64,000 bases of DNA, taken from assembly GCF_040450955.1 (NCBI RefSeq), contig NZ_CP144373.1, positions 1,778,486-1,842,485 of the forward strand. Reading direction: 5' to 3'. This DNA is from Thermodesulfovibrio sp. 3907-1M (GTDB lineage: Bacteria > Nitrospirota > Thermodesulfovibrionia > Thermodesulfovibrionales > Thermodesulfovibrionaceae). Below, one piece after another: positions 46,009-48,245 of this stretch. A program made the translations under genes and the position numbers. The first letter of the stretch is position 1; each line of letters starts with the position of its first letter. The notes under the pieces are model-generated. The model had not been told where the DNA came from. It did no database searches and saw only the letters and a list, made by a program, of their open reading frames with translations.

Positions 46009-46605
46009 GTCATTCCGAGCGAAGCGAGGAATCTCCTTTGTTTTTTTTCGGCATTGAAAGACTCAGAGATTCCTCGGGGCATCGAGCCCCTCGGAATGAC
46101 AACCCTAAGGTCCAAACAGGAATCCCTGACGTCAGGGGCTGAGACTTAAAAGGCGTTTAAAATGTGGCATAATATTTATAAGGATCTATGGAAAAATCTC
46201 CCGGCGAATGGCTGAGAGGTTGCCTGGACCTCAAAAAGGGGGTTGAAGCAAATGCGCAGACCCACAGAGGTGTAAACCTCTTTCAGCGGGTTATGGGAGT
46301 CCGCTGCATAGGTCCCACAGGGCTACCAGGCGCAGCCCTCTATAATTCATTTTTTATTACTCTTCCCTTTTTGATTATTTTTTGAATATCTTCTTTTTTT
46401 TGCCAGCCCCTAGTCCAAACAGGAATCCCTGACGTCACTCTTTTTTTGTCATTCCGAGCGAAGCGAGGAATCTCCTTTGTTTTTTTCGGCATTGAAAGAA
46501 CTCAGAGATTCCTCAGGGCATCGAGCCCCTCGGAATGACAATGAAAATGGCATCGAGCCCCTCGGAATGACAACCCTAAGGTCCAAACAGGAATCCCTGA
46601 CGTCA
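46009..46605 (+). repeat. Approximately 849-bp-period duplication, copy 1
   Basis: This segment repeats nearly exactly at 46859-47453. It includes a palindromic element, the linker, the candidate RNA gene and a second element. Inside the RNA the visible difference is C versus T (GAAGCAAAT versus GAAGTAAAT), pointing to recent duplication. Confidence 0.85.
46176..46350 (+). ncRNA. Candidate structured RNA, copy 1
   Basis: About 175 nt between repeats folds on paper as a long rod. AGAGG (46215-46219) and GCCTGG (46222-46227) pair with CCAGGC (46326-46331) and CCTCT (46337-46341). Inside are hairpins AGAGGT-GTAA-ACCTCT (46266-46281) and CAGCGG/CCGCTG (46284-46306), and a purine-rich unpaired stretch follows 46232. 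CATAAT (46168-46173) is a possible -10, and a T-run near 46350 a possible end. Size and rod shape recall 6S RNA, but no diagnostic 6S sequence is recognised. It is not a tRNA, tmRNA, SRP or RNase P RNA. The 65-residue open frame across it is probably meaningless. Confidence 0.4.
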
Positions 46606-46858
46606 GGGGCTCTTTGTTTGTCATTCCGAGCCTGCCCATACTTTGTCATTCCGAGCATACCCATAATTTGTCATTCCGAGCGAAGCGAGGAATCTCCTTT
46701 GTTTTTTTCGGCATTGAAAGACTCAGAGATTCCTCAGGGCATCGAGCCCCTCGGAATGACAACCCTAAGGTCCAAACAGGAATCCCTGACGTAAGGGGCT
46801 CTTTGTTTGTCATTCCGAGCTTGCCCATACTTTGTCATTCCGAGCATACCCATAATTT

Positions 46859-47453
46859 GTCATTCCGAGCGAAGCGAGGAATCTCCTTTGTTTTTTCGGC
46901 ATTGAAAGACTCAGAGATTCCTCGGGTGGAATGCCACCCTCGGAATGACAACCCTAAGGTCCAAACAGGAATCCCTGACGTCAGGGGCTGAGACTTAAAA
47001 GGCGTTTAAAATGTGGCATAATATTTATAAGGATCTATGGAAAAATCTCCCGGCGAATGGCTGAGAGGTTGCCTGGACCTCAAAAAGGGGGTTGAAGTAA
47101 ATGCGCAGACCCACAGAGGTGTAAACCTCTTTCAGCGGGTTATGGGAGTCCGCTGCATAGGTCCCACAGGGCTACCAGGCGCAGCCCTCTATAATTCATT
47201 TTTTATTACTCTTCCCTTTTTGATTATTTTTTGAATATCTTCTTTTTTTTGCCAGCCCCTAGTCCAAACAGGAATCCCTGACGTCACTCTTTTTTTGTCA
47301 TTCCGAGCGAAGCGAGGAATCTCCTTTGTTTTTTTCGGCATTGAAAGACTCAGAGATTCCTCGGGGCATCGAGCCCCTCGGAATGACAATGAAAATGGCA
47401 TCGAGCCCCTCGGAATGACAACCCTAAGGTCCAAACAGGAATCCCTGACGTCA
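46859..47453 (+). repeat. Approximately 849-bp-period duplication, copy 2
   Basis: Near-identical to 46009-46605, with only a few single-base length differences in T- or A-runs, so the offset drifts from 850 to 848. After 47453 the copies diverge: this copy continues with a further palindromic element. Confidence 0.85.
47025..47199 (+). ncRNA. Candidate structured RNA, copy 2
   Basis: Same as copy 1 shifted by 849 bp. All predicted stems are identical. The difference seen, C to T in the GAAGYAAAT unpaired stretch, does not affect pairing. The promoter-like CATAAT and T-run are also kept, so both copies could be expressed. Confidence 0.4.
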
Positions 47454-47654
47454 CTCTTTTTTTGTCATTCCGAGCGAAGCGAGGAATCTCCTTTGTTTTT
47501 TTCGGCATTGAAAGACTCAGAGATTCCTCGGGGCATCGAGCCCCTCGGAATGACAATGAAAATGGCATCGAGCCCCTCGGAATGACAACCCTAAGGTCCA
47601 AACAGGAATCCCTGAAGTAAGGGGCTAAGACCAAGGTAAATCTAAACCATGATG

Positions 47655-48217
47655 AATGGGGATAGACCTTCAGGGGCAGAAGGATATCTATGGATTTTAT
47701 GAGTTTTTTGGCTCAGAGAGTAAGGAAGGCTGAGAGCATCAGTTGTGTTTTGTGCATTTAAAGAGAAACATAAGGAGGAATATGGGAAAGGAGGCATCCA
47801 AGGAGTTTCTCAAAAAGCTTCATCAGATAAAACAATTCAGTGCAGGTCTTGAGGAGGCTGTAGAGAGGTTTAAAGCCCTCTGAGATAGATACCAGAGAAG
47901 TTATCCTTATTTTATGAAAGAACTGAAGGAGAAGGCAGAGAAGTATTTTAATTTCCTTAGATATCCTGAAAATATAAAAAAGACACATATACACAACCAA
48001 TGCAGTAGAGAACTTTAATCGGAGGATAGAGGAGATAAGGCTCAGGCTTGGAGGATACTTTCAATCAGTTGAAATACTTGAGATGAATCTGTTTTTGCAG
48101 AGGGAGCGATTATTACAGGGCAGATGGAAAAAACCCGTCCCTATACTCAAGGCTAATGCCTATGAACTCAGACAGATTTTTAACAGAAAATTCTATGGCC
48201 AGACACAAAACTCTTGA
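47655..48217 (+). pseudogene. Decayed IS256-family transposase
   Basis: Scattered frames recover the C-terminal half of a mutator-type transposase: GIDLQGQKDIYGFYEFFGSE, then a stop, then FVHLKRNIRR, KYFNFLRYPENIKKTH, a frameshift, and TTNAVENFNRRIEEIRLRLG with GYFQSVEILEMNLFL. TTNxxExxNRxIexR is the family hallmark. The N-terminus with the first catalytic Asp is missing, and there are at least two stops and one frameshift. No clear terminal inverted repeats are seen. It abuts the repeat array. Confidence 0.75.
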
Positions 48218-48245
48218 CAAGTGCCTCATTCTTGGTGAAGGTTTT

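Follow-up and report, generated by a model that had tools for sequence, protein, structure and literature searches.

A candidate structured RNA family of Mu-like phages, with two copies lying between CRISPR repeats in a Thermodesulfovibrio genome

Background

The packaging RNA of phage phi29 is a phage RNA with a loop-loop contact. Other cases include the Racr RNAs, accessory small RNAs that phages use against CRISPR (PMC10651486), and the hammerhead and twister ribozymes, which show enrichment close to the genes of Mu-like phages (PMC10085705). Here we examine a candidate structured RNA in a 64,000-nucleotide stretch of the genome of Thermodesulfovibrio sp. 3907-1M (hereafter the window). Comparative sequence evidence indicates that it belongs to a structured RNA family, new to Rfam, that is carried by Mu-like phages.

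Results

Two copies of an RNA gene in a repeat island

A repeat island of the window contains an RNA gene of about 162 nt twice, each time within a duplicated unit of about 300 nt, with the copy starts spaced by 849 nt:

46181 to 46342, plus strand: RNA gene copy 1 (199.9 bits with covariance model R1, see below)
47030 to 47191, plus strand: RNA gene copy 2 (200.3 bits)
46146 to 46173, plus strand: copy 1 promoter, TTAAAA-16-CATAAT, from a promoter scan; its counterparts in other members occupy the same place with unlike sequence

As an earlier note on this DNA had observed, the copies are nearly identical (one mismatch in 281 aligned bases); a search of the entire 1.94-Mb genome revealed no third copy. 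The CATAAT that the note had called promoter-like is the -10 element of a sigma70-like promoter with a TG 5' of the -10, the sole promoter that the scan returned in 46100-46420 (shuffles give 0.3). Copy 1 folds at -66.2 kcal/mol, beating 200 of 200 shuffles (z -2.8), though this energy is weak support by itself and the reverse strand folds well too; the reality of the candidate is thus argued chiefly from comparison, through the compensatory changes in homologues. The palindromes flanking the copies had been taken as repeats capable of mobilising the RNA. The adjacent one is instead the 36-nt CRISPR repeat of the host itself, while the others in the island are indeed palindromic repeats, namely REP-like units (GTCATTCCGAGCGAAGCGAGGAATCT). 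Tandem duplication along with flanking repeats is evident, but the presence of just two genomic copies lends no support to any further mobility.

Homologues in bacteria and Mu-like phages

DNA searches recovered a copy with 79% identity in a genome from another family within the order (G026) and a shorter homologous copy in one of the same genus (G005), both with promoters that differ in sequence and hold the same position relative to the closing stem. The covariance model R1, derived from these three Thermodesulfovibrionales sequences (window, G026 and G005), was searched against 177 genomes of the order and clearly matched just three of them, namely the host, G005 and G026; its clear matches among 396 genomes of the phylum were limited to the same three. 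Searching IMG/VR with R1 recovered Mu-like contigs with e-values of 3e-31, 1e-24, 2e-22 and 5e-13, the scores being 129 bits for L045, 104 for L046 and L048, 93 for L093 and 58 for L039. Model R2 added L195, L200 and L201/L202 (E<=2e-9), bringing the total found by covariance models to nine IMG/VR contigs (seven distinct sequences) and the two other Thermodesulfovibrionales genomes; the L048 RNA is identical to that of L046, and L104 is the same contig as L039. A pattern search returned 43 genome-contig matches, among which solely L084, from the G005 genome, was a full match; L076 has the 3' hairpin part alone and the remainder were rejected as chance. Named phages and plasmids yielded no homologue of the RNA in blastn searches.

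In the eight phage contigs examined (L048 was left out) the RNA is situated in the interval that separates gene G from the head gene F, antisense to F, and in the examined IMG/VR members its 3' end abuts the F stop codon. Pfam tests on four contigs identified the neighbours as Phage_Mu_F (PF04233) and Phage_tail_S (PF05069), and G was placed by tblastn in the remaining contigs. F functions in head morphogenesis and G in virion morphogenesis. These genes overlap in Mu and DMS3, where the RNA model found no match; given that F and G touch in these and many other phages, the RNA is dispensable for the phage cycle. In all three bacterial genomes the RNA is detached from intact phages, and we consider its spread between lineages better explained by phages than by repeat mobility.

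A fold with two predicted tertiary contacts

The elements of the fold, as they occur in copy 1, are:

46182 to 46190, plus strand: 5' strand of the closing stem P1, pairing with 46307-46315; compensatory change in 6 of 9 pairs
46198 to 46202, plus strand: CUCCC pseudoknot strand, whose partner is GGGAG in the P3 loop (46295-46299)
46216 to 46232, plus strand: hairpin P2, whose loop UGCCUGG (46221-46227) kisses 46326-46332
46284 to 46306, plus strand: hairpin P3; compensatory change in 6 of 6 pairs
46319 to 46339, plus strand: 3' hairpin, whose loop ACCAGGCGC kisses P2

The homologue search and test of the stems that the earlier note had proposed bear out its suggestion of an undescribed structured RNA class: homologues exist and their conserved stems show compensatory changes. 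Across the covariation set of 11 distinct members, 97.4% of 465 base-pair cells are paired and 31 of 48 pairs have changed on both sides, as against 16.2 +/- 2.3 in shuffles (0 of 500 as high) and 5-14 in slid-alignment controls, with the proviso that the alignments were fitted to a model shaped by three founder sequences and the pair counts accordingly lean towards that model. The covariation score is 0.489 versus 0.157, and the covarying helices comprise P1, P2, the middle stems, P3 and the 3' hairpin.

Neither tertiary contact formed part of the model to which the alignments were fitted. The strand-loop pseudoknot is CUCCC/GGGAG in most members, CUCGC/GCGAG in L104, L200 and L201, and CUGGA/UCCAG in L195, with a single mismatch in G005. 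The kiss between P2 and the 3' hairpin spans 7-8 nt and is present in all members; UGCCUGG/CCAGGCG becomes UGCCUGA/UCAGGCG in L200 and L201, and the contact is retained though relocated to another hairpin in L104, L195, L200 and L201. These patterns point to a fold in which a loop-strand pseudoknot covaries and all family members conserve a kiss between two loops, so that the long purine-rich strand previously described as unpaired is mostly paired via the two pseudoknots. The nested helix GCUGA/UCAGC of the minimum-energy fold finds no support in the homologues. What had been described as a 3' T-run is a T-rich stretch that is largely the complement of a phage F gene relic, with no U-run directly after the 3' hairpin. 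The family offers a well-supported and unusual fold, with two tertiary contacts that are either covarying or strictly conserved.

Comparison with described RNA families

The covariance search that the note had proposed, with RF00013 and all of Rfam, produced no match to the candidate: the 6S model was silent on it even at E<=10, while detecting a genuine 6S RNA of the host at C1:15424-15600 (74.3 bits) and 6S RNAs in nearly all relatives, and nothing in Rfam 15 attained the gathering cut-off on the RNA when the window and phage members were scanned. A match to CRISPR-DR45 on the minus strand (21.5 bits against a cut-off of 37) was judged to be chance. Neither ARAGORN nor Rfam matched the family to tRNA or tmRNA, no Rfam ribozyme was recovered in the window or the scanned phage loci, and we found no description of the family in the open-access literature (the subscription literature lay outside our scope).

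A phage piece among CRISPR repeats

The surroundings of the two copies contain the following features:

46110 to 46145, plus strand (crRNA sense): complete host CRISPR repeat, GTCCAAACAGGAATCCCTGACGTCAGGGGCTGAGAC, immediately preceding copy 1
46146 to 46160, plus strand: what remains of the final codons of phage gene G (LKGV*; the window has DLKGV*, and G of L139 and L193 ends YLKGV*)
46340 to 46412, minus strand: relic of the 3' end of gene F (Mu_F family), KKEDIQKIIKKGRVIKNEL*, with 58% identity over 19 aa to the C-terminus of L045 F
46413 to 46437, plus strand: truncated CRISPR repeat, the next after copy 1 (repeat comparison)
46959 to 46994, plus strand: full CRISPR repeat upstream of copy 2 (repeat comparison)
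47189 to 47261, minus strand: second F relic, as in the first copy
47262 to 47286, plus strand: truncated CRISPR repeat after copy 2 (repeat comparison)

A phage piece of 267 nt (46146-46412) thus occupies the spacer position between host CRISPR repeats and comprises the RNA together with its promoter, flanked on one side by four codons of G plus the stop and on the other by some 20 codons of F, which run on the opposite strand. The F stop codon is in register, and the order and orientation are those of phage L045. The 36-nt repeat upstream is identical to the repeat of the host array at G000:C1 ~315.5-318 kb, beside which is a gene that reads as Cas6-RT-Cas1 (Cas1 was tested; Cas6 and RT were read from the translation), and REP-like units interrupt the window island and the true array alike. 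More of F survives beside the G026 copy (68% identity over 53 aa), which lies about 600 bp from an array; no F relic accompanies the G005 copy, and the host genome lacks a Mu_F gene. The sequence arrangement indicates that a piece of phage was left between host CRISPR repeats and duplicated with them.

Some additional observations concern the same regions. The locus with the host array (L154 5400-10933; host genome ~315-321 kb) is type III-like, with a predicted Cas6-reverse transcriptase-Cas1 fusion, and the array contains duplicated spacers as well as interrupting REP-like units. The F relics of G026 (L004 1400-1480) and of the window (46389-46412) have in common a run of eight A that shifts the gene out of the reading frame seen in intact phages. 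A transposase-like gene has copies (L160, L177 and L178, at 285, 749 and 1030 kb of the host) that appear to be interrupted at one place by a CRISPR repeat fragment and REP units, and the end of the window island (47630-48220) corresponds to the downstream sequence common to these interrupted copies.

The F-G gap in other Mu-like phages

IMG/VR F loci collected with a protein profile, together with the earlier loci, provided 87 measurable F-G distances. These are bimodal: 27 fall at -14 to +30 nt (all but one at or below +7), 52 at 79-170 and 8 are longer. When the top-scoring promoters of the two strands are compared, the strand opposite F outscores the other in 46 of 46 distinct gaps (mean z 2.2 versus -0.2; Wilcoxon p 5e-12), and in 17 of 17 when one gap is taken from each of their 17 sequence clusters. 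Folding z-scores did not separate the strands of the gap, so that strand assignment is based on promoters and covariation.

The clusters include the new RNA family, a second RNA class and tRNA-like RNAs. The second class has the core ACACGGUGA...CUCCC...GGGAG, with a pseudoknot displaying compensatory changes, and may share this core with the new family; we used the pseudoknot alone here because MAFFT misaligns the closing stem. It too is without homologues in named phages and plasmids by blastn. A tRNA-like occupant is seen in L257 (RF00005, 35.5 bits), and E. coli E2855 has a RefSeq tRNA-OTHER in the F-G slot, in the same orientation as the RNA; a stretch related to the E. coli occupant is found in 161 of 5,426 E. 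coli genomes.

Candidate antisense small RNAs of the 17 unrelated clusters are located in the F-G gaps of IMG/VR L190-L268, and in E. coli at L269 1499-1578. Two Thermodesulfovibrionales prophages have small protein ORFs opposite F in the gap (L138 465-782 and L139 2733-3023), and a Mu-like phage contig codes for sRNA-Xcc1 (L234 5497-5578; RF02221, 65 bits) about 1.6 kb past it.

Discussion

We consider it probable that the element is a phage RNA gene of a new family with an accessory role. A small-RNA gene of Mu-like phages, on the strand opposite F and with its own sigma70-type promoter, would give a transcript of ~125-175 nt that is predicted to adopt a closed, multi-hairpin structure. Two tertiary contacts would hold it together, one joining CUCCC to the P3 loop and the other joining the P2 loop to the 3' hairpin loop. 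Its own promoter, place opposite F, dispensability, solitary copies and replacement by unrelated RNAs or proteins suggest that it acts in trans as an accessory gene expressed in lysogeny (an "RNA moron"). Its likeliest action would be to tie up a factor of the host that binds or cleaves RNA, as a means of counter-defence; that step, taken by itself, is tentative and is suggested by the variety of occupants of the F-G slot, which resembles an arms-race locus in containing numerous RNA folds unrelated to one another, RNAs that look like tRNAs, and genes for small proteins. What the window retains of such a phage is a 267-bp piece, left between host CRISPR repeats and duplicated along with them. 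The presence of the RNA in just three of the order's 177 genomes, detached there from intact phages, speaks against taking a benefit to the host for granted.

Of the alternatives, the one with the most in its favour pertains to the window copies and is compatible with the above explanation for the phages: the copies could be a dead phage fossil, passively duplicated by the repeats and devoid of present function. The reduction of F and G to stubs and the many truncated repeats of the island speak for such decay, and we accord it a real, if lesser, chance; however, both copies retain an undamaged promoter, all helices and both tertiary contacts, and the conservation of the RNA in phages would be left unexplained.

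Regarding what the RNA does, we infer that an accessory trans-acting RNA ranks above cis-regulation, and the latter above a ribozyme. Transcription against F and G might tune late prophage genes, with the fold serving chiefly for stability, as could be expected from an RNA that lies opposite F, touches its stop codon in the phages examined and is oriented like the tRNA-like occupant in E. coli. Yet the extensive covariation and two tertiary contacts suggest that the fold has a function in its own right, promoter and structure persist in the solitary G005 copy without F or G, and the slot is taken by many unrelated folds, making such a cis-acting or antisense regulator unlikely. A new class of self-cleaving ribozyme is a serious rival on account of the ribozymes recurring close to Mu-like phage genes (PMC10085705) and the compact, doubly pseudoknotted fold, but in view of the RNA's own promoter, opposite to the late mRNA, and the absence of Rfam ribozyme matches from the window and scanned phage loci, we regard it as improbable.

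The exact start of the window piece after a full host CRISPR repeat, the array ~600 bp from the G026 copy and the type III-like host locus with its RT-Cas1-like gene also bring to mind an anti-CRISPR that consists of RNA, or else an oversized spacer taken up by the reverse-transcriptase CRISPR system of the host. Against this, the RNA shares at most 8-mer matches with the repeats of G000, G005 and G026, far from repeat mimicry, and is unmatched by the host spacers examined; the piece measures 267 nt compared with spacers of 31-39 nt and is followed by a truncated repeat, rather than 30-40 nt lying between complete repeats; and the phage and G005 copies lie outside repeats, leaving a CRISPR-linked role or origin improbable. 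Finally, the divergent 6S RNA of the earlier note, a reading prompted by size and first impression, can be practically dismissed, with a true 6S gene elsewhere in the genome, no RF00013 match, a multi-hairpin, pseudoknotted fold in place of a rod with a central bubble, and linkage to phages.

Returning to the accessory phage RNA, we cautiously raise the possibility that the F-G junction is a slot reserved for quickly diversifying genes for RNAs that disarm different RNA-based or tRNA-directed host defences, the new family being one that bacteria have kept in CRISPR-repeat islands. If so, the slot would be an RNA counterpart of an anti-CRISPR locus, stocked with pseudoknotted RNAs, tRNA mimics and other folds. 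With a recurrent slot for RNA genes in a common group of temperate phages, comparison of F-G gaps could reveal host-acting phage RNAs, and the tRNA-like occupant in Mu-like prophages of E. coli makes the slot testable in laboratory strains.

Among described RNAs, 6S RNA (RF00013) resembles the new RNA in length but differs in fold, sequence, genomic location and phylogenetic pattern. The tRNA-OTHER or tRNA-like RNA of E. coli Mu-like prophages has the same F-G slot and orientation, but a tRNA fold and unrelated sequence. The ribozymes near Mu-like phage genes (PMC10085705) are likewise structured RNAs that recur at particular places in Mu-like phages, whereas the new RNA matches no ribozyme family and has its own antisense promoter. 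Unlike the packaging RNA of phi29, the new RNA is dispensable, as it is not found in Mu or DMS3, and its loop-loop contact is predicted to be intramolecular. The Racr RNAs (PMC10651486) are similar in being small, non-coding, accessory and expressed from their own promoter in a phage intergenic region; however, Racrs mimic a CRISPR repeat, whereas the new RNA is unlike any host repeat, is larger and is predicted to possess two tertiary contacts.
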